A stretch of DNA of 64,000 bases from Sipunculus nudus (Eukaryota; Annelida; Sipuncula; Golfingiida; Sipunculidae), in assembly GCA_026874595.1 (NCBI GenBank), contig CM049310.1:35729558-35793557 (forward strand), given 5' to 3'. The stretch's first letter is position 1, and each line of letters opens with the position of its first letter. A program made the position numbers and the translations under genes. Below are positions 25,301 through 63,801 of the stretch, piece by piece. The notes under the pieces are model-generated. The model worked only from the letters and a program-made list of their open reading frames with translations, was not told the origin of the DNA and ran no database searches.

Positions 25301-28300
25301 CAGCATTTAATTTAGGGGGACCTAATCAGGAGCAATATTATGCCTTTTCTTTCACACTATCAGTTCAGTTTTGCTTTATACAAAAGTTTCCTAGCAATAC
25401 CATCCCAGCACACAGTCTCAGTACCTCGCATACTGCTGTTTAACACCTTGTTATGGCTCCGCATGTTTGTAAACATAGTCCACGTTTCTGTTTACCATAA
25501 CAAGGTCGTGTGACCAGAGGTCCGATTGTGAACCACAATACAAAAAGTTTTAGCCAGTGGGAACATGTAATACAATTTGGGGCCAAGTCAGTCAGGGCAT
25601 CTCATGATTGGCAGGTGTTGTGGCTCGGCGATGCACAGTCCTACATGCTATGTTTATGTTGACACCTTTGACTGTGCCTAGTCCACTGTTTTTAACACTT
25701 GTTTACAGGAGTAAACAAACCGTTTCAGGGTATTGTTTTGGCAGGTAAAAATTTATTTTAAAGGTAAAAAGCTATTTTTCGTGTTAATTCAACATGCTTT
25801 ATAGGTGATTTGGCCCCTTTAAGCAGGATGTATTTATTAAGTTTTCAATTGAATTTCCTGAAGAGAATGACCAGTAACTTAAACATTATACAACCTGCCT
25901 GAACCTATCAAAGGCATAATGTCTCAAGGTCAACCAGGTCTTTAACCATCACAGATGCATAATGTAGTTGGCTTCATATTGGTGAAATTTCATGATACTT
26001 AATTTTTTTAAGTTTCACAAAGATTTCTTTTCCTTAATCTAGCCAGAACACAATACACTGGAGTAACAGATCATATGATTATTTTTTATAAACAAGATTA
26101 TAACCAGATACTTTATTTCATTTATTTTACCAGCTGCATTAATGACAGGAGTCTTTCCACATGGAAAATTTATTTATATTTGTCTTCCTGGTCTGGTTCA
26201 AATTCTATGCACTAAGAAAGCTGCTGCTGAGTGTACAATGTTTTATGAAAACCTCGCCTTTCGAGACATGCAAGATATGTAATGCAGTAATTCTGTATAT
26301 GACAGAGTCACTGGTGTTATATTCACACGAGTTTCTTAAAGCTTAAAACCCTTTCACTAATATTGCAAATTTTAAATCCTGATTAATGTGAAGCCAACAC
26401 AAAATGCAAGTGCCTGCATCAAGCTGACAGGCCTCTATCATTTTAAACAGTAAACGTATTTCCATGTAATTACCTAGCTAGTTAAAGGTTTATTGCTTGA
26501 GATGTAACGAACAATAAGAACACTTCCTTACCATGCTGACCAGGCTCTCCACGTTGACATCTTCAAGCAGGGCAGACAAAAGGCCAATAGCTTTTGAGGC
26601 CAGTGCGACCCCAAGTACTCCAAAGCCTGGGTAGCTGTTGGTAACATTATAGATGTTTAACATTGGTGTGTACTGATAAACTTTTAAAAAATAAATGTTT
26701 GACTTAAAACTTGACAGATCTTCTCCCGAAATCTCTATGCATTAATAATAATCATCTAATTAAACAATTAAATAAATTACATAATAAAACCATCCATCAA
26801 AACACAAGAAATCAAACATAAATGGTGTTAACTGAATCCAAAACAATTTATTAACTTATTATTTGTGAAATAATAATATATTAGATAATATACAGATATT
26901 CAATTAGTAAATTAAAAAAAACACCACAAAATTACAAAATGATTGAATAATCAATAATTAGCATGAATTAAAATAAAAACATTAAAGAAATAATAAAAAA
27001 ATTAATCAATATAGAAACTGGAAAGAAAGAAAGGAAGAGAATGGTGTTTGGTTGGAGAGTGGTTACCTTTTTGGTGATCCTGACTTGGAGCTGGTGCTGG
27101 TTGTGTCTTTGGGAGCCTCTTTAGGTTTTGCCTTCAGACCTACACCCTTCTCTACCACCAGCTGAGGCGACCAGTTCATCAAATTCTGCAGCCCCATCAT
27201 CAGAAACCAGCTTCCAAGCAGGTGAAGGTTCTGGAGGGCCTGCCACAGAATAAGGCATTATGGGTGTAACATTAACCTTGAAAATGTGATTCTGATGTCA
27301 TTTTTTTTCTTTTTCTTGGGGGGGGGGGGCTCAATTATATATGTCCAACTCAACTTAAAAAAGTCAAGGCTAAGATTTTTCCATCGCTGGGCAATCAAAA
27401 GTGTTTGAATTAGAAGTCATGTAAGCAATATGGTCAGCTAGTGACATGTTGTATTACATTATTTTACTGGATCTTCTTAAACAACTTCATGGTATATTTA
27501 AGAAATTATCTGAGAGTTTGCCTTGCTTTTGAATGGACTTTTACATATAGGGCATGATTAACCTTGAGCTTGATCAGATATCACACTTACATGTCCCCCA
27601 GCCTTGGTGGATGATCGTACAGCCTGGCAAACTGAATTGAACACTGCCAGCTGAAAAGAATGATTTACAGTTCATAAACATGATGCTTTACCCCTTGCTA
27701 ATGTCTGGTATATGTCGAAATCACAGAGCTGAATTAGTAAACATGATTACAACACCTTTGAAAAATATAGGTACATTTACATTTATATACTTTTGTAATG
27801 CAAAACATATAGGTTTTTCATTGCACATCAATATGGCAAATTATACACAACATCTACATTGAGGTAATACCAATTTAACACAATTTTTTAAATAAATAAG
27901 AATTCAAATAACTAATTTAAGCTTTCATTTTTTACTGAACATTTGCATGGTGTATTGTAAAACACTAAATTCTCTTGCCTTCTTATTTTCCAATTTGTTG
28001 CCAAAATCAAACTGGTTATGTAATATTAACAGAATCTATTACAGGGCTCCAATCAGAAATATAGGAAAATGTAGGAATTTTCACTGTACTGTTATGTTTT
28101 ACTCAGTGACATTCCATGACTATCCTCACAGAAACATTTTAACCTCTGTTTTATTGATTTAGCTACAGCTGTACTTGTATGACTGTGTACCTTAAATGAA
28201 CATTTCTTCAAAAGATCTGAATGTTTTCCATGACAGCAGGTCTATATCACAATAATAATTCAATACTAACAGTTATATTGGTAACTTGATTGTGCAGTGA

Positions 28301-31300
28301 AAAAATATAGGAAAATACAAAAGATTGAGGACTAAATGCTGGAAAATACAGGAAACTATAGGAAACAATATTTTCATAGGAAAATATAGTATTTGTCTAA
28401 AGCACTGCTATTATAATGCAAAAATATAACCAAAAACTTACACTTTTCTGCACAATTCCTGTGGCATGTGCATCCAATTCATCTTGGTCCTTTGTAACAG
28501 GGACTCCTTTCACTTGCATCCCAGCAGCCATGGCAACCATGCTGGTTGCTGTGGTGACCGTGATTGCTGTGTAGAGACAGGTCATGGCGACTGTGATGAC
28601 TTTCTCCAGGCGTTGTGGGGTCAGAGGTTCCAGTATTGGAAGAGAGAAAGCTTTCCATACAACTGATATATCAGTTAGCAAAAGGTGGAACCTGCAAGTA
28701 GTTACAGTCATGCATGATGGTGTTTTTTTTAAATCTTTGGGGGTTGATAAACAGGCAGGAGAATCATTCAAATACCGCAGCAGTTATTAAACAAGCCATG
28801 AATTTTGTACTTAAGATCTCATCATGAGCCAATCTTCTAAATGCTAAGGTAATATAACTATAAAATATCATTAGAGACACTGCTAATTCTATTTCATGGA
28901 ACAGAAAGCTAAAAGATATGGGTCTTAGTGTTCTGTGGAGTTTTTTTTTTTTTTTTTTAAGATTTTTTTGGTGGAGGTAACCGCCTCCATTTTTTTTAAT
29001 GCTTGCTTAACTAAGTATGTACATCTGCAGAATTCCATTTCGGTTTCGGACTACGTGAAAAGGCTTACACACAGTTTTCTTGCGTCAACCAGGCTCGGTG
29101 AACCACACCTGCAGATCCTGGGTGTATCTCATCCCCATTGCTGGGTCATAACACCGAGGAACCCCCGAAAGGCGCACTCGTTTGTGAGTGAAACACGACT
29201 GTTGGGTACAGTCTCCCAATTAAGCCTGCAGATTGCTCACCCTGGGTGGGGGCCGACCGTGAAAAATCTCACCGGCTCAGCTGAGATTCGAACTCACAAT
29301 CTCCCGGCTTTGAGCCCTGCGCTCTACCCCTGAGCCACAGAAGCCGGTCTGTGGTTTAACTAACAGAATTTTAACAAATCAAGCATAAAACCTTTTTAAC
29401 TGTTGCAAACATCAGGCAAGATCAAAGTCTCCTCCATTTTCCTCCAATAATTTACACATTAACACAAACATGCTGATGTTCAGTGACTGTTTGAATTTAT
29501 AATTTCAAAATAGGAACTTAAAACTTACGAATTACGTATAGCAACGGCATCCCCGATGGAGTTAGGCATGATGAACTCCTCCCCTCTCAGGGTGTCAAGG
29601 TATCTGTTCTTGTAACGCTTGATGTAGATCAGCTGTAGGCAAACGTCAAGCAGCACATTGGCGCCATCTAGGATCTGGAGGGTCTGAATGTTCTTGTTCG
29701 AAAATACGGTCTTGGCCTGTGCATGATAAATCAGTTTCCATTTTAGTTATGAAATGTATTTCTTAATTATTTAGGAAAACCAAAAAAGTGAAAAGTGCAA
29801 GCTTCATTTGATGGTAAAGTTATTCAAATGTCGTAAGATATGTGGACTGTAAGGTGACATTGATGAAGTGAGAAGAGCCTGATGAAAGCTCTTGTTGTGA
29901 TAGGCCAGGTTTTGTCGACATTTTTGAATTAAACACTAAGTACTCTGGAGTGGATCTCAATAATTTCTTTGTGATGATTTAAAAGTACAGGTTCAACAGA
30001 TCTTTTATAAAAAGATAATGGAGAAAGCCACAGGATAAGAATGGTCCGTGCCAATCAACCACAGCTTTAATCTTCTTGAATCTTCTTCCTAACATGATGC
30101 ATGAGAGAGGACCAAAGAGAAATTTCAGGACAAGGGACCCATGGGTCACGGCGCTCAGCTGATATTTATGATAAAAAAATATGATTTTGAAATGAGGCAC
30201 ATGCTGGTTTTGTGTGGTAATAAATATATGATGTATTATGAGTTGTTGGTGTTTAGCTTATGTATGATTTTGATAGTTTCTGTGGAGACAGGGAAGAGAT
30301 TAAATGCATTTATTTTATTAACAAATGGAGTGCTATTGTCATACAGATTTTGACTTAGCCATATAACTGTAAGCAGCAAATATACGATAAGAGTTTAACT
30401 ATTTATTAAAATTTAATAACAAATATTGTGCCAAATATAATTTTGATTAAAAATAATAAGAGAATCATATGATTTTTTTAAATAAAATATAACTGAAATG
30501 ATTATTAAAATAATATTATAGAATATATTCATGAATGCATTCATGAATACATTTTGAAAGTATTTGCACTGGTATTCATTTTTACCTGAATTCCCATTCT
30601 TATGAAAGAAATTTTATAATGGAGTAAATATTCATATTCGTATTCAAATACATTTGCAAAGTATTCACACCATGTCTGGCCAAGCTTAAGTTTGAAATTT
30701 TTGCAAATGCAAAATATTAAAAATATTCTATTGTAATGTTTTCATTTATATAACATATGAGAAGCTAAGAGGAAAGGGGCCCTCCTACTTGGTTATAGTA
30801 AAGTTCTAAATATATGATTGCAAACTAATACTCTGACAAGACTGTCATGAAGAAAAACAGTAAAAGTTTTGAGATACTGTGATGCATATGAAAAATTTAC
30901 AAATGGACAGGCAAGTGGACAGAATGGACTAATACCTTTATTTCACTTTCAAGGGAATAATGCATTTAAGTTTATATATAAGCCTATTTTTTAGCATATC
31001 CACTTTTTTCATTTATAGTTTTTATCTGATTCATTTTTTTATTACCAAGTTTTATAAATTTGTAATAAAAAAAACTGAAAATATAAGTTAAAATATATGA
31101 ATTCTAAGTTGCAATCATTATATATCCATAGTGTAGCTCATACTGGGTCATATTATGCATACACATATATTTTATTATTTTTAAATCAAATGTTTAAACT
31201 GAATTTAAAAGAAAATAATGCCACAACATGGCATGTACAAGATTATTCCTTGAATCCTTATTAAAAGTTTTGCACATTGGAGTTTTCAGTACATGCTTAA

Positions 31301-34300
31301 TTTTATTCAACGAAATAAAATAAGAGATTCAGTAAATTTGATAAAATAAAAACATCTTTTCAAATAAAGTACACACTGTTGGTTGAATGAGGGCCAAACA
31401 ATATCATTATGCTAATTACAATCTCAGCTATAATTTATTACTGGAATTAATAGTCAATTTCACAACTGGTGAAGTTTTACTCTTCTGAAGTAAAGCATTA
31501 CTTTTCTGATGAACATCCACACTTTCATAGCAATACACCACTTTGTGGACACAATTAAATGTGCACTTTAATCATTGTAACCCTGGTGGTACAATACAAA
31601 ATCTAAAATGTAGCATAGCCAAGAATAAAATAAAATAGGAAATTAATAACATTCATCTAGTTAATGCACAATCTGGGGGGGGGGGGAGTGCAGGGCAGAG
31701 GGGAAGCCTGCTAGTAGTGGCCAAGCTGAGCCAAGGCTAGCTGCCTGGGGTGGGTTACATAATGCAAATGAAGGCTGTACTACTAGGTGGGCTAGATGTA
31801 AACAACACTTGACATGGTGTATGAAAACTTGAATAAAAGCTACTCTTTTCAAGCAATTACTTTGATATTTCAGATTTTAAAAGATTAAATCCTTATGTAT
31901 ATATGCTGTGAAAATTAAATCAACAGTGCTTACAGGGAAAAAATGTGCCATTGCCAAAGTTGGACAAAATTTAATGTATTGATTTTTTATTTATGCTAAT
32001 AACTTATAAAATTTGAAAAAATGAGATCTAATTTTTGGGTAAACAATTGAATCTTGAATAAATAAAGTTATATTCCTGAAAAAGTCTCCAGCTTCAGCAA
32101 TTCCCATGTTAAGTGAGCAAATATATTTCCTGATTTTTAAAAAATTGCATTATATTTGGGCCCATAACTTCAAAATAATACCCAATACTGACCTAAATTT
32201 TGGTATGTGCATAGAAAATGTATGGAAGAATATGAATACTAAATATGATCAAAAACAGATCAGTGGTTTTGATATTAGGCACCCTTTAAGTGTAACAATG
32301 GCTTTTTTAAGGAAAACGGAGGTTTTTCCTTAATATCTCGAAGGAACAAAGTCCTAATGACCCAATTTTCGGTATGGTAGGAGATTTTGGGGACACCTAA
32401 TGGTATGCAGAATTTTGGATTCGTAGGTCCAATGGTTTCAAAATGTGCCCTGTTAACGGACGGATGGCCGGACGAAGGACAAGGGACCACGACTATAGCT
32501 CAGATGACTAATAGTCAGCTGAGCTAAAAATGGGTGGGGGTTCAGAAGTTTCAAGTACTATATATGCAAGAATAGGAGTAAATAAGGTAAAATTTCCTAA
32601 ATCAGTTAATTTCCTTAAATTTCTCAAGCCTGTTATAAACAGCAGTGGATACCATACACTTACCTCCTCATTAGCCTCAGGTAGTGTCCCTGATTCTCCA
32701 TCGCCGCTGATCATATCAATGGGACTGTCTTGTTTTCCAGTTGTTGGCAATTCATGAAACACTGATGTCAGCTGGTCAAATATGTTTGTACCTGTATCTA
32801 GCCTGGGGCGTTTGACATCCTTTGGTTCTGCTACTTCCTCAGTTTCTAAAAAGGAAGATTTGAATAATAATGTATAAATGACACAAAAACACCTAAAAAA
32901 ATATGTGGTGCCATCTCATGCAAGTGCTAAACAAGTACTAAACTTTCAACAATGAATGAATAACTGCTCCTAAAATTTTTTTTTCTTTCTAAAATTGAAA
33001 TCTCCCTGATTGCCAGTTTTTTTTTGGGGGTGGGGGGGGGGTGGGGGTGGGGGTAAAATTTACAGTTCACATATGACTGCCCAAATCTATAAGGTTTCAC
33101 ACTAGAGAAATAGAGAAATAAAGTATGACCCCAAGGACTGTGAAGCCCATAAAAAAGTCTCTTTGAGCTGGTCATCATAACCATAAATCTTCCAAAGTGG
33201 ATATGCTTCAACCCCTACCCCCCCCCCCCCCCACAGATAACATATGTACTGAACAAACTTAGTTTTCTGAGTTCTGCCCTCTGCGAGGAGGGTATGGCTT
33301 CACACCATGTGTGTGTTTGTGCACAACATGACTCACACAATCATGAAGAGAATCTCATAAAATTATCAGGGCAGTTTGGGAACGGGGAAATGAAGAATTA
33401 GATTTTGGTGTGAATCGAAATTATGATCTGGATTCAGGTAAATTCACAATTGCACAGTCATATATGCACAAATGAACCTGGGAATATGGAATGACAAAGT
33501 GAATGCAAATACAGTTTGGGAGCATCGTGGAGACTTGCATTCCTTTTCTAGTTTCTCAATAAAACATCTCAAGTTTGAGATAAATAAGATGTGTGGATAT
33601 ATATTGTCTAATTGTGATAAATATGATATGTTGATATAAATTGTCTAATTGTGTGGTTTTCTAAGCATGGGACATAAACTTGAAGAAAGAATCTGTAATT
33701 AATATATTATGGTTAATAAGTGAGGTTTTACTGAGAACTAGCCATTTTGCTTTGGAGGCTGATGGTTTGAACAATGAGCCATTATCTGTTAAGTCTGATA
33801 CACGCCAGTTCCCTGGAGACTTACCTTTTGATCTGATGTTTGGTGGTGGTTTTGCAGCCTTGAGGAGTGCTGTAAAGGTCACTACGTCAGACTTTGGTAG
33901 ACTAGAGGAGCCCTTACATAGGCTGCCAATCAAAACCATCAGGGTTTTCTGTTGTTGAAAATAGATAAGACGTTATTACTTAATTAATGAAAATACCTTA
34001 GTTGGAAGGTGAAATCCAATACTCTTCAAGCGGTAAGACAAGCTATATTATCACTTATCACAGTTTTGGACCTCTTTCTGTTTACATTATACAGCAAAAT
34101 GCTAAGGCTAGATTTGAAACATACTTGTTGGACAGATTAACCTAGTGTCAAGGAAGTGCTAACTAAATTCTTAAGTTGATATGGATTTCAATAAGGATAC
34201 ATAATAAAATTTTTGCCTGTTACTACATCTGGCTTCCCTAAAGGAACTGCAGCCAACTGTGACATCTGGTGAATGATGTTAGAGCTATAAGTTTTGGATA

Positions 34301-37300
34301 AAGAATACTTCATTTTAGAGTTCCATGATAATAAGACTGGTTGAGGTGTGCCCCATATATGAATACTGTGTATTTATAAGTTTATGATAAATAACAGTCA
34401 AATATTATTTTCCCCATTTTGTGACAAGAATGCAGACAGTTTTCCGTTACTCTATGAACTGCTCCACATCACAAATACCTTTTATAAGATTTTATAGACA
34501 TCTGAAATTGCGAACTGACTAAATAAGTACAACTTCAGCAAAGCACAGCCAATATTTATTAACTGAAACAAACTGTTAAAAGAATGAAACAAGTCCCTCT
34601 CAATTACATTTTGATAGCACATAACATCACATGATATGCATTTCAGCTGTGATTAACAGAAGATAGTGTTAATACTGTTTTTTCTTACCCAGAACCCCCC
34701 ATTCCCCTCCCCGTGAATGGTGGTTTTGTTAGTTAACGGATGTGAGCTTTTCTGCATTAATGAGAGAATATTCTCTGTTAGTATTCACACGCCAGAAGCC
34801 CCACTTACAAAATTTTCCCTGAGTAGGCCTATCATCGCCCACTTCAGTCTCATTCTCGGTATCTAGGTCATGCCTCGTTTTGGTAGAGACACTTATTCGA
34901 GGGCGAAGTAGGAAGTATTGGGGGAGGGAGAGATGATTGTAATACAGAAAAGCTCACATTGGTTTACTAACAAAACCACCATTCACGGGGAGGGGAATGG
35001 GGGTTTTATTACGTAAACATCGATGTGAGCGTTTTCTGTATTAATGAGAAGAAACAGATAAACCATAGGGAGGGAAATACTGACCTGGAACGACGAGGAT
35101 GAAGAGAATGCGGTCAGCAAGTAGTAGAAACCACAGCAGAAGATGACGTCAGCAGGCAGGGAGCGGCCCAAACATGAGTAGACGTCGAGGAAGCTGTGCT
35201 GGTGACGTTAACGATAGTGCCGGCGGCAACCACGGGACCCATGGCATATAGGCCGGAGTCCTGCTGGCGGACGTCCTTGAGGTAAAATTGAGTAAACATG
35301 GAAGGGGACTTCCAGATACCCTTTTTGACCAGCGCGGCAGGAGACAGGCCAGAAAGGTGAACAAAGGAGGAGGCTATAGCCCTGACCTCATGAGCCGAGA
35401 CATGGAAGGACTGGAGGTCAGCCGGACGTAAAGAGTCATGGGCAGCGATGATGGCAACCTTTATCCAGTTACTGATAGTAATAGGACTTATTTCTTTATC
35501 GGCTGCACCCAATTTGGAAGAAATAAAGTTTCTTACGCCCCCCCCCCCCCCCCCGAGTGATTATGTAACCTTAAGATAGTACCTTAAGGCCCGGACGGGG
35601 CAATTCGTGGCGCCGAACCGGTACCGGCCGTTAGGCAGGGCAGGAACGTGCCACGAAATTGCGGGGTCATCGTTAGACAGCAATTTACGATAAAAGTCCG
35701 GAGGAAATTGAAAGTCCGCTAACGAATTTTAGGATCGGCTATGAGAGCATGGAGCTCAGCTCTACCGCCAGCAGTGGCGAGCGCCAGGAGGAAGGCTGTC
35801 TTACGCGACAGATGGAGCAGGTGCGCGGAGTGGAGCGGCTCATAAGGAGCGCCGTGGAGGTGTCGAGGTACCACGTCAAGGCGCCAAGAAGGAACCACGT
35901 ACCGCGGGCGGGACAACGAGCGCGGACCCCCTGGAGAAAATCTGAAACAACGGGATGACGGAGAACTGAATCCCGACGGAGGGGGCGAAGCACGGAAAGA
36001 AGAGCCGCCCAATAGCCGCGAATAGTGGGGAAGGATAAACTTTTATCCTGTAATAAATGCAGTAGGAAATCAAGGAGCAACTGGACCAGCGGATCCAGTG
36101 GATCTATATGACGCTCCCATGCCCATCGAGAGAAGATGAGCCAGCGGGAGTCATACACACGGTCGGAAGATCGTCGACGGGGAGCCGCTGCCAGAGCTGC
36201 AACCGGTGTTGACAACCCCTGATCTTTGAGCGATCGGACGACAGTAAGAAAGCGCTCAGAGGTTAACGAACAGCGCCAGGACGGAGTGGAAGATCGACCG
36301 ACAGCGGCAGGAGAATGGGCGGACAGACGAGAAACGAACTGCACCGAGGAAACCACAGAGCCGCTGGATGAAACGGGACGATCAAGATGAGGTCTCTGAG
36401 ATGCGCAGCCGAGACAGGAGTAACTGGGGGAGCAGTGCCAGGGCCGGGAACCCCTACAAGAACCGGCCAGTCCAGGCAACGGTGGACCGGACGGAACGAG
36501 GGGCGGAGGGTCGGGAAATCGAACAGGTCGAAATCTGTCTGTCATGACCAGAACATGACTGGCAAGGAAGCGCAGAGACCAGCATTCAAGTGCACAACAG
36601 ACTGCTCTGAGCTCCAGAATATTGATATGGAGCAGACGCTCCCGAGGAGACCAGAGGCCGGAAATCCGAAGATCGGCCAGGTTGGCACCCCAGCCCAGCC
36701 GAGAAGCGTCAGTAAAGATCGCAAAGGTGACAGTCTGCGCGAACGGAATACTGCGGAGGAGAAAAGACAGCCAGAGCCAGGGGCGGAAGGCCCGCTAGGC
36801 CTGGTGGGCAGGGAGAATCGCCGTACGCTGAGACCCTGAACCCAGGAGACGCGTGGAGCGCAGGAGCGACTGCACCGGGCAGAGGAACAGGCGGCCCATA
36901 GGGAAGAAAGTGGCCGCCCAGTTGAGAGAACCGTGTAAGGAAGCCGCCAGATGGGAGCTGACACGACGAGCCAACAGAAGGGAGCGGATCCGCCAGCCCA
37001 GACTGACCTAAGTCGAGCAGGAGAGTTACACGACCGGCCTGAAAATCCAGGACCACGCCCAGAAACTGAATGGTCTGGGTAGGGACCAGATGAGACTTCT
37101 GGACATTGACCAGAAAGCCCAGATCGTGAAGAAGGGAAAGCACGAGGGCACGGTGGTGGAGAAGTAGAAGGGGCGTGAATGAGCCAGTCGTCCAAGTAAG
37201 GGAGGACTGATACCCCGACTGACCGGAGGTAAGTGATCACAGCATGAACAAGGATAGGGCGCAATATTGATCCTGAACGGGAGGGCTCTGAATTGAAACA

Positions 37301-40300
37301 CGCAGGCGCCGTAGGCGAACAGAAGGAACGGCTGAAACACAGGGTGGATAGGTACATGGAAATATGCGTCTGTTAAATCGATCTTGAACGCCCAGTCACC
37401 CTGGCGGATGGTGCAGAGCACGGCAGGAATACTGAACATTCGAAAACGGGGTGGTCAAATAAAGGCATTTAGGCGCTTCAGATCGAAAATCGGGCACCAC
37501 TGCCCGTGTGGCTTTGGTACAAGAAAGATGCGGGAATAAAAACCGGGAGTTCCGGGACCAACTGGGATAATGGCGCCCTTCAGGAGAAGGGACCGAATGG
37601 CATTTTCCAGCGCGAGACGCTTGCCCGGATCCCTGGATGGGGGAGTAACGAACGGAAATGCCGTGCGGGGCGGAGGAGAGAAAAACGAAATTCGGAAACC
37701 GAAAACTGTGCTTAAAACTAGTGGATGCGATGTGATACGCCTCCAGGCCGGATAACAGGCCTGAAGGCGGCCGCTGACCAGACCTGGAGATTCACTTATG
37801 GCCGTGACCCCTCCGAGCAGATTTTCCTAGAAAGGAAGAGGTCTGGGGAGACCCGGACGTCCGAGCAGACGGGCGGGTAGGAGCCACCGAGCAGCTAGCA
37901 GCCAGAGCCCGGACAGGAGCAGTACGGGACCGGAAAGGGCAAGACGCCTGTGAGGTCAGAGGAGGCGCCGACCGGAGGCGGGCCTGACAATCTGATCGAC
38001 CCAGGGCAGCCTCATACATGTGGGATAGATGACCCCCGAATAGGAGAGATCCTGTGAACGGCTGAGTGTAGAGATCCGAGAGCTCCGCGGGTGACAGCGC
38101 GGGCTGGACGGAGCGAAGGGTGCGGAGGAAAGTGTTGTAACTCGGCACATGCGTGAGCGAAAGCCTGCCATATATTATTTAATATGGTAGGAACTGAAGA
38201 AATAGACAACAGGCTGGTAACGGCCTGAAGGTCGTTGACAACGCCAGCGGCCTGGCGGGCGAGAGCCTCCATATCCGAGAGCTGAGAATCAGATACATGC
38301 GCCGTCCAGGAAATAAAGCAACCTACCGTCAGAGAAGGGTTGATCAAGACCCAATTCCGCCCGCATCGGTTCCGATGGAACAGCGGGAAAGGCGGGAGAC
38401 GGGACGAGCCTGTCAAGGCAGGTTGCCCGATACTCCTAAGGGGACCATAAAGTACCGATCTGCCAAGGGCACCGCGCGCCAGGCGGCACCGGCGACCCAG
38501 ACAATGAAGATATAGCGCAGGTGTTGGCGGCATGATGATTGTCAAGCAGCCGAGCCATCTCATCGGTAAATTCCATGCAGACCTGAGGCCCGGAATTCGG
38601 CACTGAGAGCGTGGACAGGTTCAGGTAGAACCTGGCCGACGCGGCAGAGGCAGGCGGTGGCGGGAGGCGCTGGAAGGTCAGCCTGTCCGTTCAAGAAGCC
38701 TGCATGGTGCGGACCACCTGATCAAGTAGGGCAGACTTCATTGTGCGCCACGCCTGTCTCTGCATATTGAGAGCAGTCCACTGATCCGTGCCAGCTGGAG
38801 GTGCCTGATCTGTAAATACAAGCGGAGAACTGAGGGACGGAGAATCAAGAGCTGACAAGGCCTCAGGAGCAGCCTGGACACAGACGGGGTCCATATCAGG
38901 AACCGCAGGGCGGGCGGGAGACGCGGACGGGAGGGCATGAACCGAACCAGCGGAAGGACGGTCAAGGAGGCGGTCCTTTAGAGGGCGAAGGGACCGATGG
39001 CTGGGAAGGGGGGGATCAAGCAGGGGGGGAGCACTTAACTGTGCCGGAGCCTGCAGGGAACAAGCGACCTCCACACGTTTGGGGGCGCGGAAGTGGGCGA
39101 TGATAGGCCTACTCAGGGAAAATTTTGTAAGAGGGGCTTCTGGCGTGTGAATACTAACAGAGAATATTCTCTCATTACTACAGAAAACGCTCACATCGAT
39201 GTTTACGTAATAAAACTGAGTGATTTTACATATTTATATTTAGTAGACTTGCTAAGTCAATATAACTATGTCATACCTTATTGATGGTGCATTCATCATG
39301 CTGGTGCTTGAGACGGTCCAGTAAGTATTTAAGCAGCACCTTGCATGCTGCTGTTGCATCTGACATGTTTCCATTTCCGACTGAAATATAAACAGATATA
39401 TCTCTCCAATTTTCAGGTATACTTATATTTATGTATGACTTTAACTCTGTTAAACTACAACGGTGGTGTTGTGACAAAGCCCTCTTAAAGACTCCTGGAA
39501 GGTTTAAGATTTCAGTAACAACAAGATGAGGTCGGACAATGGTCCTCAGAGGTCCCCACATTTCTGGTAGTGCTGGACTAGTTTACATATGGGAGAAAAG
39601 TTAAGGTTAAAGTTGAAAAATATGACAAACAAAATAAGGTTTTTATCCATATGCATGAGGGAAAAAATCCTACTTGTTCAAATAATATTAAAGAAGATAT
39701 GTCTGAAATAATGTGTGCAATAGAAAATCACCGATTGTACTCTGTTGCTCATATTTGATTTTGAGCAAGTCAGTATTTCAAAAGGTCAGAAGGCCCCATA
39801 TAGGCACCCATGGTCCCTGTGAATTTGAGAAGATCAAGCATGATCTTGTTGAGATATCGGGTGCGAAAGAAAATCAACGATTGTTCTCTAGCAGCCATAT
39901 TGGAATTTCAACAGGTCTGCAATTCAATAGAGATGGAGACCTTATAGGTGGCAATCATCTCTGTGAATTTGGGAAAAGTGAATAATGTTGTTGTTGAGTT
40001 ATTGCGCGCAAAAGAAAATCAGCAATGGGGCTGTGGCGGCCATATTGGAATTCAGACAGGTCTGTAATTCAATAGGTCTGTAGCCCTCATATGTACCAAT
40101 CATCCCTGTGAATTTGGGAAAGCTGAAGTATGTTGTTGTTGAGTTATCCCTCACAAAAGAAAATCAGCAATTGGGCTGTGGCAGCCACATTTGAATTCTG
40201 ACAGGTGTGTAATTCAATAGGTCTGTAGCCCTCATATGTACCAATCATCCCTGTGAATTTGGGAAAGCTGAAGTATGTTGCTGTAAAGATATTGAGTGCG

Positions 40301-53214: not shown

Positions 53215-53295
53215 ATGTCTGTCGTACACAATAACGTCACCCCAGAGGATGCCAAGTCCTACCTGTCACGCCGGGAAATTCCCCAGCTTTTTGAG
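53215..53295 (+). CDS. AK5: AK5-like exon 1 with start codon
   Basis: 81 nt, ending before GTAAGT. It encodes MSVVHNNVTPEDAKSYLSRR then EIPQLFE, almost the same as vertebrate AK5 NDAKEYLARREIPQLFE near its N-terminus. The start has AAA before ATG, with A at -3. Confidence 0.9.
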
Positions 53296-55424: not shown

Positions 55425-58400
55425 TATATATATAAATTTTTTACCAATTTCTGTGCATCAGATCCTTAGAATTTCAGTACTTTTTTTATTTTCATCACTG
55501 TTTTTTTAATTAACTTTTGACTGGAGCTTTTCTTGAATGGGAGAGAGGAAGCCTTATAAAACTTGAGTGCATTTGGTACAGCTCCAGAAGCCTACAAAGA
55601 TGCAGGACCATTGAATCCTGTTCATGGTTGACAACTTCCCTTTGGTGACATGAGTATCGATTTCACATCAAAGATGAACACAATATTTAACTGACAGTTC
55701 ATTAGCCGGGTCACCTGCGGAGATGGAGACTAGCAGGTCGTTAATGCTCCAATAGACGACAGTTCTACATCATCTTCCTCGGATCAATAAGCTAATGTCT
55801 TACCGAGGATGAGTTATTGGTGTTACATCCATAGGTGAGATCAAGGACGCCTGATCAAGGATGCATGCCTGTTTCCATGGCAGCAGTACTGTCTTAGCTG
55901 TTTTTATTATTTTTTCAGCTCAAGGATACAAAAATGCTGCCTTTATCTCTAATTATTCACATAAAATAATTTTTGTTCATCAAGATTTTAAATCTGTTAC
56001 TTTTTATATGCTGAATGTATTAAAATCCTCAGAACCACTAAATTTAAAAAAGCCCACATTTTCCTTGTTATCCATTTTTATATTTTAATGTTTACATAAT
56101 TAACATAAAATGTAACCAGATGGTTGTGATAATTTATAATGTTCAGATGTGGATAGCCTGAAAGGATTTGTATTTTATTGATATAATATTTTGTTCTGGC
56201 TAATGATTCCTTATGTCAAATATTCTGCAGGTCCAAAGAACCTATTTCAAATTACAATATTACAGTATGACCTATTACAGTAATGCACTGTTTAGTATAC
56301 TTAGTTCACTTGTTAATCTCAGTCTTTCATCATGGCTTTGTATCTGTTTGTCCCTGTCTCACAGTCTTCTTATTTAGTGAATAGTAATTTAATAAAATCG
56401 ATATTTTGTGAAATGGTGGACTTGGAAGCAATAATTAAGGAGCTGTCTCAGCTTCAGAATGCCAGGTCTCTGCTCAGATGTTGATCCAGGAATGTTTCTT
56501 CTGTTTCAAGAACACAGTCTGCCAGGAGGGGGCCACCAGTGGTGCTGATGGTTGTATCTATGATTTCAGTGAAACAAGTTAACAAGATAAATATCCCTGA
56601 TTGGCAGAGGTATGCACTCTGTTAGTGCTCTCTACTTACATGAATAGTACAAAAAAAAAGTATATTTATATGTTTTCTCTCCTCAACAGAGCCTGATGAC
56701 GGGATTGATGTACCACAGACCAGATGACCACATACATTACCTGCAGAGCTGTCTGGAGAAGGTCAGAGAGAAAGGGCTGGACACGGTGCGATGGAACCTA
56801 TTTATAGAACAACGTAGTAAGACCCCACTTCCCCCGATACCCCCTGGAAGCCGTGAAAATGGCCGAGTAGTCCCCCCACCCAGAGAACCTAGCTATATCC
56901 AAGGTTAGTATAATTATAAATTATTAATTATATATATAATGGTTATTGCCAAAACAACCTGCATTAATAACTTCCTGAAATTTACAGTGCCCATGTATAA
57001 CCAATTTAAAATTTCAATGGTACTTTTTATTTAGTTATGATTCCCTTGCTATTAGTGCATTACATAACATTTTCATATTTAATATAATTTCAGTGGAATT
57101 TTGTTATCGTCTTCATGTCCTAACAAAAATTGTGTACATTAGGCAGAAATCAGTGTGGTCTAGCATTTTTACTTTACCTTTTTTGTATATTTCATTAAAA
57201 ATATCATATGATCAGGGAAAAGCATGATAATAACAGATTTTTTTTGCTACAGAGGTAAAACTAAAGCACTACACAACAAAGGAAATCTTATCAAAATTGT
57301 ATTATTTTATCTTCTTGGAAGATGAAAATCAAAATTTTTTATGTGTACGTGGGCGGTGTATAAGAAACCATACTTTTTTTTTTGCCTTATGAGTATGTTT
57401 CTTGAAATATTTTCTTTCTATTTATAATCTCTACAAGACTGCTGTATTGTTGTAAGAAGTAATGTTTATCAGGTAGAAAAAACACACCTCTTGCATATGA
57501 AATTGGCATAACACACATGACTTTTTGGCACTCTGCTAGGAGACTGTTTTCTTAGTTGTCTTTCTGACTGATTTGAACCAAGTGAGGCAGCTCCAGACTA
57601 TCTGAAGCATAATAAGCTTGAAATTAACAGACTCTGAGTGTTTCTGTGATATGATGCAATTAGACATGAAATCAGCTTGAAGTTTTTGATCCACTTTCCG
57701 TCCACAGTTTCCTGGTGCTCCTGTATTGATTGAGTGAGACTAAGGAGTATGTTTACCCAGTATGAAACTGCAGGCTCCTGCCAAGTGTCTATCAATTATT
57801 ACTCCTTATGATCCATTGTGAATAGCCAAGTGAAAATTTTGCAAAAAGTGATATAGTGTACATAGTCCTTGGAAATAATCATGCAGCTTGTTTACATATT
57901 CCTGTAGAATTCTGGTTTTCCATAAGTCCAGTTCGTTATGACTTAACAACGTGAAAGCAATTTCTGTTATCATCAGATTTGGTCCAGCTGTTTGTCTGTC
58001 TGGCCATCTACTTGTAGGCCACAGTTTGTGACTTAATGCTATAGTTTGAACTTGTAATTTGAATATTGTGTGCATCAGGACAAGTTCTTCTGTTTGTCCT
58101 ATATAGCTGCCTCCCTGTTTATTCATTTATTAATTGTAACCCCATTACCATGGGTTGTATGGTAAAACATAATTATAAATGTTAAACCTACTAATAAATA
58201 TTTGGAAAAGTCCAAATTTCAGGTATTGTTATCACTAGAGAACTATATTCTTCTAACAAGAAAAGCATGTTTACCTACATGTTTGACTGTTTGTCTGTTG
58301 GTTTGTCAGAGATTCAGGCAATAAAATAGTGACCAAATTTTCACAATGTCTGATTTCAGTGTGTCTTAGTATTGTTAAGATTCTTGCCATTAGAATGCCA

Positions 58401-61400
58401 GTACAGTGTATTTAGATTGTCCAGCCCAAGTTGTTAACCGAAGGAGACTTTTTATTCATGTGGACCCCCTTTCTAGATCCCTTATTATCACTTCACAAGA
58501 CGTATACCCTGAAATTAGGGTTTCATCAGACGTAATGAACAAACCTTGACCAGAACAACAAATGTATGAATTTAATGAGTACTTAAAAAGCCACAGTGAC
58601 AAGCTCATAACATAGCCTGAGGAAGTTTATTGCCAGCCAGGGCAGCCTGACAGTTCCCCAGAATATCACCAGGTCTCAGCTTAGCCTTATTGACACAATA
58701 AACAGGTCCTACCTGGAGTGCGGCACTGTGTGATCAAGACTAATGTACACATTGTGTGGTGCTCTGAGGACAGTTTTTAGCATATCACCATACCTTAAAC
58801 CAATATACATAAGACTTCAGAAGAATGCAAATTAAAGCATAAAACCCAGATTATTGTATCTCTATCCAGCACACATTTTATCCTGGTGAAATAACTTTAT
58901 TGTTGCACCAATAACTTGATTATTTATCTGTAATCAACAGTTAAGCATAAATTATTCACTATCCTTGGTTATATCAAATAAATTTTTTCCTGTTTGATCA
59001 AATTATTTAAGACCAGGAAATAAATGCCATAGGATAATATTTATCAGGTATATATTTTTAATGAAAACAATTCTGAATTATTGCCTGTGCAAATGCCGAA
59101 TCATATACAAGCACAAACCTTGGCCACTGATGTTTGATAGTTGACACACCATGGTAACTGCTTTAGACCATAGTACTTTTGAGAGCACAACAAGGATGGA
59201 CTTTCACAATTAGAATACAGGAAATAATTTTGATTCTTAGCTAGTCCTTGAGCTTAACCATAGAAAACATAATCATGAACTTGACTAACACAATGGCTTT
59301 TCTTAAATGGCAATGCCATAAGATACATGCTGGATGGAGGCTGCCTCATCTAATGTATGCTGGAGGGAAGTAATCTCCTAACCTATGCTTAGACTAAGCC
59401 ACCAAAGGTTCTAATTGGCTTTCCCCAGGGCAGCCCATTGTTCTAAGAGGAACATGTTGCGGGTTAGTCCATTGTAGTGACGGATGGATACCTGAGATAT
59501 CTTACAATATGAGATAAAAATCGAATCTGCATGTGATGCAAGTATTAAACTCATAATACTTGTAAAATAAGCAAACTGCACATGTTCTTTGAGTTATTAC
59601 ATGAATTTGTGTGATTTGTTAACAGAGCGATCAGACCTTGACCTCAAGAGGAACAGCCCTCTGCCACCAATTGGACAAAGCCCAGAACCTCAAGACAGCT
59701 ACAAGAATGCGACAGCACCAGTACCAGAACAAGTTGACCGCATGGTCCTGCCACCATGTCCCATTGTGCTTGTACTTGGTCAGTATAAAATAAAAGTAAA
59801 CATAAACAGATTGTAGCAAAATAAGTCTAAGAATGAACTTGACTGTCAGCTGATGTAACTTGGGTCCAGTTTGGGTAGTGATACTATATTTGATGTTGTA
59901 TTTAATTATTTAGAAAAAGTTAGAATTATCAATTTAATGTTTCAGAGTTTTATTTCCTTCCTTATATGATAAAAAAGAAATATTATAATTGATTTTACTA
60001 TTACTCAACACTGCTGTTATTGTCTATTGACTGCAGAATACAGTGAATATATACACTGGGACTTGAGTATATGGCAGATAGCCCTTCTGAGGCATAACAT
60101 ATATTTCAGTATTATTGTACATAAGTGTACATGCTTTATGATTTTAATTAAAAAAGGGAATAATTAACTAACAGGCTGTATAGAGAGAAATACATGATCA
60201 TAACATAGAGGTTTTCATATTCAGTAGTGATATTGGTGATGTAAGCTCATCTGATAACCTAAGACTGTCCATATGGCTTATACATTGGTTACCAGTAGTC
60301 TTATACCCAAGATTTAACAGTATATTATGTTTTACACTTCAGAAGACTTTGACATATCTGTTTTGTTCTACAGGAGGACCAGGGAGTGGTCGAGCTACAC
60401 AGTGCAGGAAGCTGATTGGACGATACCCTGGCTGGGTGCATCTGTCCATGGGCGATCTTTTGAGGGAGAACATCTTCAAGAAAGGCAATGCTGATGTCAA
60501 ATGGGGCGCCATCAGTGATCTGGTATCACAGGGAGAAATGGCACCGGAGGTAGGTTCTGTCAGTAACAAGGAATTATCTTTTGTTACCTTTATTTTAATT
60601 TATTTTAATGGTCACCATAATAATATTATTTTAATCATTCCAATGTTTTCATTCCATATCCCGTTTTTGATTGGGCAGGATTTAAGTATCTTGAATACTT
60701 TGGGACTTCAGGAATATATTGATAAAATTATAAAAGTTGATTACGGTAATAAATTAATCAAGCATCTACTGGTTTTTTCTATCTCCCATCATGTGTATAT
60801 GAAATTATTTACTTGGTATGATTAATATTTAGGGTATAACTAATAGTCAGAACACCATCTACTCAAATATTTTTTTATGATTATATCTGTGTAAGCTAGA
60901 AGCATTTTGACACTAAATTTCTATATTGACATCAGTGGTGCAGCACCATGCCTGATATATGAAAACACCCATATATAAATGTTTTTTTATGAAGTTTGGT
61001 GCTGAAGAAGGAATTCCTGTCTTTTTAACCAGATTTCCTCTCTTATTTTAGGATGTGACAGTTGACCTCATCAAGAAGAGCATTCAGGGTCAGATGAAAG
61101 CAACAGGAATCATCATCGAGGGTTACCCACGCACCATGGGCCAGGTCAGAGAGTATGAGAGACTGGTAAGTGTTCAAATATAGATTTAGTACATACTGGA
61201 CTTTAGTGGAATTGTTACCGGAATAGTTGTGAAATTTTCATTTAAAGTCTTTTACTTTTGGTTTGGTAGGATACTGATGGTCTCTGGTTTGAACTCCGTT
61301 TATGGCAGCTAGATTACCACTTAGATTTCAGATCATATAATATTCTGAGCACATTAGGCTTCACCCATCATCTTTTCCTGGCTAGAAACCAGCTACGGCT

Positions 61401-63801
61401 TCTAAGGCTAAATGATGAAAAATCAACTGAATATCTTCATGGAACAAACCATGACTGCTTGATTGTACATAGCCCATTATATAGAAAATATATTATTTAG
61501 TTTCAGAAAAATAATAAGTAAAATATTATTATCATCATCACATGGTGATCTACTTCGATCCTTACTCCATAAACCATGTCATGTCACTCATGAGGCATAT
61601 TCTTGAAAATGTTTGTCACTAATGTAAACTTTTTTGTGTAAATCAGTCCTCTCTTGATTTTTATAATTGATCAAAAGCTGATAAAATACTGGCGTGTTCT
61701 TTTTGCCAGCTGCTGAACATAATTCAGGACAAATATCACAACATATACATATGACTAATGATGAAAGTGCTCACATGCACAGTCACTCAGAGATTAAAAT
61801 GAGTAAAAATGCAAAGATTGCCAGTCAGATTTGATTGTGACTCAAACCCAGATATTTTTGTTTCTTTGCTGGCTGCTCAGTCACAGGCTTGTCAATGTTA
61901 TAATCACATGACAATGTTTTTACCCACAGATTGGTCGTATAGATCTTGCGTTTGTGCTGGACTGTGAGGAGTATTATTCCACACAGCGCCTGCTGGAGCG
62001 TGGACGCAAGACAGGAAAGATCACAGACAACCTCAATGCCATAGCTGCTCGGCTGGCAGCATACAAGGAAAATACGCTTCCTGTCATCAAGTACTATGAT
62101 GACCAAGGAAAACTTGTTGTGGTAAGTTAATGCCGGTAATATTTTGTTCATATTGGATTTCCACATAAAAGTCCTGCCGCTGAAAAATTAGTAAAAAAGA
62201 ATTGATTCCTTAACCATTAAGGTATTTAGCCATTTAATATTTTGAGAATCGTACATAAAATTTGGTTCATAATGGAACTTTTAATCTGACTGAATTGCAT
62301 ATGATTACATACAAGAAAAGATGTATTAGTTTAAGCAGTGTTTTGATTTGTTTTTTGGGTCATATTGTTTTACTGTTTCCCATTAATTTTTCTTTTGATT
62401 TAATTGGATACACTGGTTAATAATGCTTTTTCAGTAATATAACATAAGTTGTTATTATTCATAGAAAATGTTTTAAGAAATGGCATATATGTACAGGGTA
62501 TCTTTTCCTTCTTGAATTGGCCAATTATCAAGCAATGTTTTATGAAATACCAATCATTACAGATTGATGGCGACCGTGATGCTGATGAGATTTTCTTTGA
62601 CCTAGCCGTCCTGTTCGACAACCTCTTCTACTCCCCTCAGAGCCAGGTTCCTGTGGCTGCAGGTATGTACAGCACACCCACCAGTCAGGGTGGCCGAGTG
62701 GTTTATGAAATGGACCACAAAACTGATAACTCAAATTCAAATTTCATAACTAACATGAACCTGCAATGTCTTTTGGTTGTATTCCCAGTCCTAACAGGTG
62801 AAAACAAATGCAGCATTTTAAAATGTTTGTCTAAAAAAACCCTTAATACCAGGAATTCTTCAGTGATAATAACACTTTTCTTGTCATTAGATTACATTTA
62901 CCTGTTTACCTTGCTTCAAATTTTAAAGACAGTGCCATCAAGAGACCTTGGACCTATAAAAAAACTGGTATAATACATGACTTCATTAATGTTATTACAG
63001 GGAAGCCCTCTTCCCCTCAAGTTCAGCCCCGCCCACCTAGTGGTCCAAAACCAACAAGCCCACGTCGTCCACGCAGCAGAGGTTCTGTAGGGCGCCCTGG
63101 CAGCGGCAGCTTTAAAAATGTTCCAAACCCCATCGTGCCAGCAGTACTAGACTCCGGGAGGCAAAAAGGCCTTCCTGATGTTCCACTTGTATTTGTCTTT
63201 GGTAAGTATATATTTTTTACAGAAATTTAATGTCTTTCAGGTTCAGAGCCTTTTAACAGAATGTACTACTTGCCAAGCTGAAAATTCAGGTCCCCTTATA
63301 TTGTATAGTTAAATGAAGTTGACATGAAAAGTTGATCATATGTTATTATTATTAACAATACTTGCATCAATACTAACTGTTGGTCTATTTAAATAAATAT
63401 AAACAATTATTCAAAAGTGTTTTGCTGTTGTTATCATGACTTAGTTTGAAATACATTTGACAAAGTTTCTGATATAATCAAAGTCACAGTAAATAATCAT
63501 TTATCAAAAATATAGTCTGTAAAATGGGTTTGCTGGAGCAAGTAAGTAATTATCTGCTTAGAGACAAAGTTAGCATCATAAGAACTCTACATTTGTTTTC
63601 TTTTTATATAAATTTCACAAGTATTTAATTGAATAGAGTTGAATTCAGTGTTGTAAGAACTCTAAATTTGGTATGTTATGTACAGGTATAGTGTCAAATT
63701 TTACAAACATATTTTATCCAGGTGGTCCAGGAAGTGGAACAGATGCTCATTGTAAAAAACTGGTCGCCAAGTATGGTGCCGTTCATGTAAAAGCTGAACA
63801 G
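53215..63801 (+). CDS. AK5: AK5-type adenylate kinase, N-terminal part, 9 exons, degenerate P-loops
   Basis: Nine exons join in frame to 1,311 nt (437 residues), continuing off the right edge. Residues 7-65 form a DPY-30/RIIa-like docking motif (YLSRREIPQLFESLM), as in vertebrate AK5. Residues 146-345 are a complete adenylate kinase domain; 345-400 are a basic Pro/Ser/Arg linker; 405 onward starts a second kinase domain. Adenylate kinases transfer phosphate between ATP and AMP. Domain 1 has GGPGSGRATQ (residues 150-159), replacing the P-loop Lys by Arg, and the LID Arg of TGR is Lys. AMP-site Arg in LLREN and GYPRT, and LID/core Arg in LLERG and AAR, remain. Domain 2 begins GGPGSGTDAH, with no Lys. 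Orthology to AK5 rests on domain order and the DPY-30 motif; a divergent paralogue is possible. Later canonical domains may lie beyond the window. Confidence 0.88.
53296..56689. other. AK5-like intron 1
   Basis: A 3.4-kb AT-rich intron. It contains a (TATG)/(TA)n microsatellite (55363-55430). I see no mobile element with clear ends and no nested gene. Confidence 0.5.
56690..56903 (+). CDS. AK5: AK5-like exon 2
   Basis: 214 nt, phase 0 to 1, CAACAG acceptor and GTTAGT donor. It encodes SLMTGLMYHRPDDHIHYLQS and CLEKVREKGLDTVRWNLFIE, completing the DPY-30-like motif (vertebrate SLLNGLMCSKPEDPVEYLES, CLQKVKE), then a Pro-rich segment. Confidence 0.92.
56904..59625. other. AK5-like intron 2
   Basis: A 2.7-kb AT-rich intron. 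No gene or defined repeat family recognised; small open frames on the minus strand near 57600-58126 have no supporting motif. Confidence 0.5.
59626..59778 (+). CDS. AK5: AK5-like exon 3
   Basis: 153 nt, phase 1 to 1, AACAG acceptor and GTCAGT donor. It encodes a Pro/Gln-rich linker and ends in the first kinase strand PCPIVLVL, immediately before the P-loop. Confidence 0.88.
60374..60549 (+). CDS. AK5: AK5-like exon 4: P-loop and AMP-binding start
   Basis: 176 nt, phase 1 to 0, TACAG acceptor and GTAGGT donor. It encodes GGPGSGRATQCRKLIGRYPG, WVHLSMGDLLREN and VSQGEMAPE. In AK1 numbering Lys21 is Arg and Thr39 is Met, while Arg44 is kept. Confidence 0.94.
61052..61165 (+). CDS. AK5: AK5-like exon 5: AMP-binding GYPR
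   Basis: 114 nt, phase 0/0, TTTTAG acceptor and GTAAGT donor. It encodes DVTVDLIKKSIQGQMKATGI and IIEGYPRTMGQVREYERL; GYPR holds the AMP-binding Arg97 equivalent. Asp of the usual (D/E)GYPR is Glu. Confidence 0.94.
61930..62121 (+). CDS. AK5: AK5-like exon 6: LID and core
   Basis: 192 nt, phase 0/0, CCACAG acceptor and GTAAGT donor. It encodes STQRLLERGRKTGKITDNLN and AIAARLAAYKENTLPVIKYY. The Arg132 and Arg149 equivalents are kept; the Arg138 equivalent is Lys and the first Asp of the LID DD pair is Thr. Confidence 0.94.
62563..62662 (+). CDS. AK5: AK5-like exon 7: end of kinase domain 1
   Basis: 100 nt, phase 0 to 1, TACAG acceptor and GTATGT donor. It encodes IDGDRDADEIFFDLAVLFDN, close to vertebrate AK5 domain 1 FDADRDEDEVFYDISMAVDN, which supports orthology to domain 1 specifically. 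Confidence 0.92.
63001..63201 (+). CDS. AK5: AK5-like exon 8: basic Pro-rich linker
   Basis: 201 nt, phase 1 to 1, TACAG acceptor and GTAAGT donor. It encodes a Pro/Ser/Arg-rich stretch (SGPKPTSPRRPRSRGSVGRP) followed by DVPLVFVF, the first strand of the next kinase domain. Vertebrate AK5 has an acidic linker at this position. Confidence 0.88.
63722..63801 (+). CDS. AK5: AK5-like exon 9: second domain start, altered P-loop
   Basis: 80 nt, phase 1 to 0, ATCCAG acceptor and GTAAGT donor. It encodes GGPGSGTDAHCKKLVAKYGA and VHVKAEQ. The fold pattern matches the P-loop and first helix of an adenylate kinase, but Lys-Gly-Thr is Thr-Asp-Ala. The domain continues off the window. Confidence 0.88.

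Follow-up and report, generated by a model that had tools for sequence, protein, structure and literature searches.

An AK5-type adenylate kinase gene of Sipunculus nudus with an arginine P-loop in its first kinase domain, which may bind nucleotide without turning it over

The window analysed here, a stretch of 64,000 nucleotides (C5:35729558-35793557) from the 1.43 Gb genome assembly of the animal (G000), contains the 5′ part of a gene on the forward strand which, judged by sequence, is the animal's AK5-type adenylate kinase, i.e. a multi-domain protein built of AK1-like units. The first kinase domain (domain 1, 60374-62662) has an arginine in place of the P-loop lysine, and five further family-invariant residues are altered. 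The reading that we consider reasonably likely is that domain 1 is an old and selectively altered domain that no longer performs useful phosphate transfer and probably binds nucleotide in a structural or regulatory role, with an eroded second domain beside it and catalysis left to a canonical domain further downstream.

The gene opens with a start codon in exon 1 (53215..53295, MSVVHNNVTPEDAKSYLSRREIPQLFE), which encodes the first half of an AK5-type RIIa-like segment and ends at a GTAAGT donor. Exon 2 (56690..56903) supplies the second half of this segment and a proline-rich linker, and exon 3 (59626..59778, AG/GT borders, phase 1 to 1) leads from the linker into the first beta strand of domain 1 (PIVLVLG). 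Domain 1 then comprises exon 4 (60374..60549), with the P-loop GGPGSGRATQ and SMGDLLR, exon 5 (61052..61165), with EGYPR, exon 6 (61930..62121), with the LID stretch GKITDN, and exon 7 (62563..62662), the C-terminal part that completes it. A proline/arginine-rich linker and the first strand of domain 2 (PLVFVFG) are encoded by exon 8 (63001..63201), and domain 2 itself starts in exon 9 (63722..63801); its later exons, 64539-64652 (LLEGYPTSKDQ), 65023-65184 and 65610-65687 in window numbering, lie on the same strand beyond the window. Over the eight exons from 56690 to 63801, 410 codons are free of stops, with AG/GT borders and matching phases, and when exon 1 and the three exons past the window are included, the twelve exons together give an open frame of 555 codons that runs from the start codon through domain 2. 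Exons 4 to 6, on which an earlier note on this DNA had concentrated, were found in place, with AG/GT borders and an open frame.

The assignment to the AK5 type rests on several comparisons. Two tandem AK1-type, short-LID ADK domains stand in a single open frame, which is a feature of AK5, and the joined protein (the part inside the window) matches the Pfam ADK family with E 3.7e-34. The N-terminus also agrees: against the human AK5 sequence, tblastn gave 14/20 identical residues (70%) for the product of exon 1 and 49% identity (E 2e-11) for exon 2, and the human protein shows the same order of an N-terminal segment followed by tandem AK1-type domains, the second of which is available as structure 2bwj. 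The solved structures closest to the gene product are yeast uridylate kinase, human AK5 domain 2 and AK1, and in NCBIfam domain 1 scores best with adenylate kinase isozyme 1, reaching 156 bits where the curated cut-off is 284. Upstream of the gene, the opposite strand encodes fragments of the UBR4 N-terminal region (22433-32915; Pfam PF19423, E 6e-25, 6e-11 and 0.0025). The minus strand also carries a retroelement at 35117-39233, parts of which, in several frames, resemble reverse transcriptase and RNase H; its Pfam matches (E 0.0066 and 0.013) fall below the curated cut-offs, and a DIRS/tyrosine-recombinase type was guessed by eye.

From the alignment (AK1 numbering throughout), domain 1 carries Arg21, Ala22 and Met39 in exon 4, Glu93 in exon 5, and Lys138 and Thr140 in exon 6, while Arg44 (exon 4), Arg97 (exon 5), Arg132 and Arg149 (exon 6), as well as Gln101, Arg128 and Asp141, are unchanged. 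The P-loop GxPGxGKGT of active kinases is replaced by GGPGSGRAT, the DG[YF]PR motif by EGYPR, and the LID residues Arg138, Asp140 and Asp141 by Lys, Thr and Asp. The canonical catalytic residues expected of an AK5 enzyme are incomplete in both domains, owing to K21R, D93E and D140T in domain 1 and to K21T and further changes in domain 2. Human AK5 domain 2 reads GGPGSGKGTQ at the P-loop, as does human domain 1, whereas here a first domain with Arg21 and Glu93 is followed by an eroded one. When 39 canonical domains were used as references (AK1, AK5 domain 2, E. coli Adk, yeast UMP kinase, and 30 viral and five bacterial loci), domain 1 was found to keep 22 of the 28 positions that are invariant in the family, i.e. 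at least 90% conserved among the references, and the six that are lost (21, 22, 39, 93, 138 and 140) are all positions of the active site. Since 35 of the 39 references were picked by a pattern fixing Lys21, Thr23, Gln24 and Gly or Ala at 22, some of the conservation at 21-24 follows from the selection itself; the other positions were left unconstrained by this pattern. Among these is Asp93, present in 39/39 references and the Mg site within DG[YF]PR.

The earlier note had listed K21R, T39M and R138K as changed and Arg44, Arg97, Arg132 and Arg149 as kept, all of which is confirmed, but its list was too short, as it lacked G22A, D93E, D140T and the erosion of domain 2. Its summary that the ATP and LID residues are lost and the AMP site is kept is partly right; Thr39, an AMP-site residue, is nevertheless changed, and Arg132 and Arg149 are retained. 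Moreover, R138K and T39M appear to weigh less as marks of inactivity than had been claimed, since the human AK5 domains also deviate there: domain 2 (2bwj) likewise lacks Arg138, and domain 1, for which a look through solved structures gave none, carries Val at 39.

That these changes might be an assembly or annotation artefact is extremely improbable. Codon 21 is CGA, which is at least two base changes away from any Lys codon and so speaks against a one-base error. The AK5-like exons map to one locus in the search of the animal's own genome, where no second copy of the gene was seen among the best candidates scored, and the active-site changes are independent and spread over three exons. A differently spliced transcript supplying a canonical GKGT loop had been named beforehand as a refuting observation, and no exon of this kind was found in the window: a six-frame scan for the P-loop motif gave 60373 as its sole match (domain 2 has changed too far for the motif to detect it), and tblastn with AK1 and AK5 placed P-loop matches at 60373 and 63709 only, among the stronger matches listed. 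Other ADK genes recognised in the genome are AK2, AK3 and UMP-CMP kinase, and the P-loop exon, read for the latter two, has Lys in both. A scan of the genome contig collection with domain 1 gave pattern matches in 76 stretches, none of them a relative, and K21R may be confined to this species. On contigs C61-C90 (e.g. L161-L168) the same assembly has 12 matches to adk genes that lack introns and are of bacterial type; eight were read and hardly differ from one another, and these contigs are probably bacterial, from symbiont or contaminant strains.

The replacements in domain 1 can also be read differently, namely as those of an active though slow adenylate or other NMP kinase, in which Arg21, Glu93 and Lys138 conserve charge and Met39 perhaps alters the choice of NMP. 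Since Arg, Glu and Lys are mild replacements, weak activity of domain 1 is indeed possible, and it would fit the retention of Arg44, Arg97, Arg128, Arg132 and Arg149 along with most of the invariant positions. Human AK5 domain 2, which is active, manages without Arg138. AK8 of the radial spokes (9fqr_G8) has lost Arg97 in its domain 1 (DGIPE) and Asp93 in its domain 2 (HGFPR), with the P-loop Lys present in both, yet it is described as having two catalytic domains (PMC11779644), so that a single lost residue is no proof of inactivity. Against a slow kinase stand the non-conservative D140T and the occurrence of Glu93 and Lys138 also in the eroded domain 2, and we find this explanation rather doubtful. 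The same D93E and D140T changes, and the Lys138 of domain 2, make a compensation between K21R and R138K, which the earlier note had entertained, less likely.

Domain 2 is far more eroded than domain 1. Its P-loop reads GGPGSGTDAHC (K21T, G22D and T23A), Arg97 is replaced by Thr, and both the stretch that would carry Thr39 and Arg44 and the acid pair of the LID have been lost; three candidate exons inside domain 2 were judged by eye for the missing Thr39 and Arg44 segment, and none resembles it. On these grounds domain 2 is very unlikely to function as an adenylate kinase. The two domains are 41% identical to each other, and domains 1 and 2 share 31% and 29% identity, respectively, with the canonical domain downstream. 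Since Glu93 and Lys138 are common to domains 1 and 2, both changes probably predate the duplication that gave rise to the pair. One could suppose that domain 1 is itself drifting under relaxed constraint toward the state of domain 2, serving for spacing only and owing its conservative look to chance. Domain 2 shows what the end point would be, and in a one-step model 22% of the non-silent changes of a Lys codon lead to Arg and 20% of those of an Asp codon to Glu, meaning that mild replacements are not rare. However, such drift is hard to reconcile with six losses at active-site positions when the other invariant positions are kept, or with the intact frame and splice sites of domain 1, and we regard it as very unlikely.

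A parallel from bacteria bears on how an arginine P-loop may be read. A scan of the prokaryote genome collection with the pattern GxPGxGR[GA]TQ returned at least 119 stretches, of which at least six are ADK-like (6/120 among the matches listed). Five of these six listed matches come from two-domain adenylate kinases, where they form the second domain behind a first one with GKGTQ, i.e. the non-canonical half of a tandem, which also argues against a slow kinase in the animal protein; the sixth (L046) stands alone as one domain, and its genome has another ADK with GKGTQ. In viral contigs, ADK-like sequences make up 0/9 of the R-type and 30/32 of the K-type matches. The second domain of L067, used as query over 198 genomes of one order, found a match in 189, ordinary single-domain Adks included, and the frames that contain the best 30 loci of this search range from 388 to 413 codons. 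These 30 (L192-L221, with L067 itself, found by the R pattern, included as L192), together with L005, L014, L035 and L078, which came in via the R pattern, and L186, L187 and L188 from the same genomes, make a set of 37 tandems.

In this set, the first domain is canonical at 22 key positions, except for Ser39 in two tandems, and has Arg21 in none of the 37. In the second domain, Asp93 is lost in 36/37 (Lys in 34, Asn and Gln in one each, Asp in one), Asp141 is kept in 0/37 and Arg138 in 6/37, and every one of the 37 has Asp at the place that aligns with Asp140. At position 21, 27 of the second domains have Lys and 10 have Arg, a share that is no unbiased rate, because the set was drawn by the R pattern and one query. 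Asp93 is lost in 10/10 of the Arg cases and in 26/27 of the domains that keep Lys21, so that on these counts loss of Asp93 before Lys21 would be the simpler order. For the R-type domain, dN/dS comes to 0.07 (L067/L035) and 0.17 (L005/L078), compared with 0.03 and 0.24, respectively, for the canonical domain of the same two pairs, eight of the ten bacterial pairs having been dropped because their synonymous sites were saturated. Such low values indicate that an Arg21 adenylate kinase domain can be selectively kept when its fused half is canonical; for the animal domain this is an analogy and proves nothing by itself.

In two Bacteroidales assemblies (G003 and G005), which may be incomplete, no ADK other than the tandem was found, and two or three tandem genes each are present in three genomes (G001, G002 and G006). 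In the two Bacteroidales assemblies it adjoins HPRT-like and Obg-like frames, named by eye. A whole bacterial tandem, used as query, had no match among solved structures at E up to 1e-60, and a full-text literature search, with most subscription journals outside its scope, returned nothing on adenylate kinase pseudo-domains or bacterial tandems, which may still have been described. The bacterial tandems resemble the animal gene in their fused adenylate kinase domains, one of which has lost Asp93 and has a weakened LID, as well as in the Lys-to-Arg change of the P-loop seen in a part of them. They differ in that the canonical domain precedes the altered one, Lys rather than Glu mostly takes the place of Asp93, most keep Lys21, and all keep the Asp140-aligned residue that is Thr in animal domain 1. 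The two are presumably of independent origin.

A canonical AK1-type domain lies on the same strand ~18 kb past domain 2. Its exons (83470-83505, 85885-86048, 86391-86507, 88474-88665 and 90059-90124, the last with the stop; window numbering, beyond the window) encode GGPGSGKGTQC, DGYPR and SGRVDDNEETIKKRL, and the domain is 62% identical to human AK1. A phase-1 intron occurs at the identical place in the P-loop of all three domains, and the donor site after exon 65610-65687 means that the gene continues past domain 2. Perhaps, then, the canonical unit is the third domain of the same protein, the alternative being a neighbouring AK1 gene. Codon scoring of the ~18 kb between them did not find an exon chain joining domain 2 to the canonical domain, and nothing convincing appeared there aside from a strongly acidic ORF of 471 codons (71401-72813, window numbering), which may be a linker exon or a separate gene; the ATG near its start would also fit the latter. 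Further on, at about 98118-98210 (window numbering, beyond the window), there is an AK-like fragment with an internal stop, perhaps a relic copy.

The sea urchin flagellar adenylate kinase has three domains, as cited in PMC2680645. Compared by domain number, the two domains described here and the canonical one on the same strand would possibly follow the same three-domain plan, with the differences that two of the three are non-canonical here and that a joint transcript is a candidate.

The N-terminus invites a second comparison with the axoneme. AK8 docks through its RIIa segment on RSPH3 there (PMC11779644), and it is similar to the present protein in its RIIa docking, which here is putative, and in having two kinase domains without the full canonical residues; it differs in the Lys of both its P-loops and in not being an AK1-type sequence. 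The joined N-terminus of our gene matches EFCAB10 of 9fqr weakly (E 0.012). At G000:C11:47488563-47488811 (L178), part of a second gene likewise encodes an AK5-like N-terminus (36% identity), and an AK8 query against 8 kb around it gave no match. The AMP- or nucleotide-sensing role suggested by the earlier note would make domain 1 a sensor that controls the protein or the axoneme. The retained Arg44, Arg97 and Gln101 would suit such a function, and small-molecule density has been reported in both open and closed axonemal adenylate kinase domains (PMC11779644). A sensor is, however, difficult to square with the changed Thr39 of domain 1 and with a domain 2 that lacks the whole Thr39 and Arg44 segment, and we think it unlikely.

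Taken together, G22A, D93E, D140T, the eroded domain 2, the canonical domain downstream and the bacterial parallel make the pseudokinase reading that the earlier note had put forward a likely one. In the mechanism that we favour, the P-loop arginine would keep the positive charge and the phosphate contact and at the same time hinder transfer, and Glu93 at the Mg site and the weakened LID would add to the catalytic loss. Domain 1 would thus retain its fold and probably bind nucleotide, acting as a nucleotide-occupied structural or regulatory part, while domain 2 would descend, with more erosion, from an ancestor that resembled domain 1. Catalysis would be left to the canonical AK1-type unit downstream, whether third domain or neighbouring gene, and the RIIa-like N-terminus may tether the protein to an axonemal partner, by analogy with AK8 on RSPH3. 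That the loss of catalysis could leave nucleotide binding intact we infer from the bacterial case and from RAD51 K133R, a Walker A Lys-to-Arg variant that binds ATP and is defective in hydrolysis (PMC3155514, PMC10681713). AK4 is likewise described as inactive but nucleotide-binding (PMC2680645).

Fused adenylate kinases may even offer a repeatable route to such nucleotide clamps, in which Asp93 and the LID are lost first, Lys21 gives way to Arg later, and selection keeps the clamp because it steers a canonical partner, with independent outcomes in animals (domain 1 of the AK5-like protein) and in bacteria (domain 2 of the tandem Adks); this is a speculative proposal that we advance with considerable reserve. 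The lead of wider reach is the bacterial tandem family, which provides a simple system for testing the role of such a domain. If an AK5-type enzyme does possess nucleotide-binding, non-catalytic domains, then care would be needed when the catalytic domains of multi-domain adenylate kinases, the axonemal ones among them, are counted.
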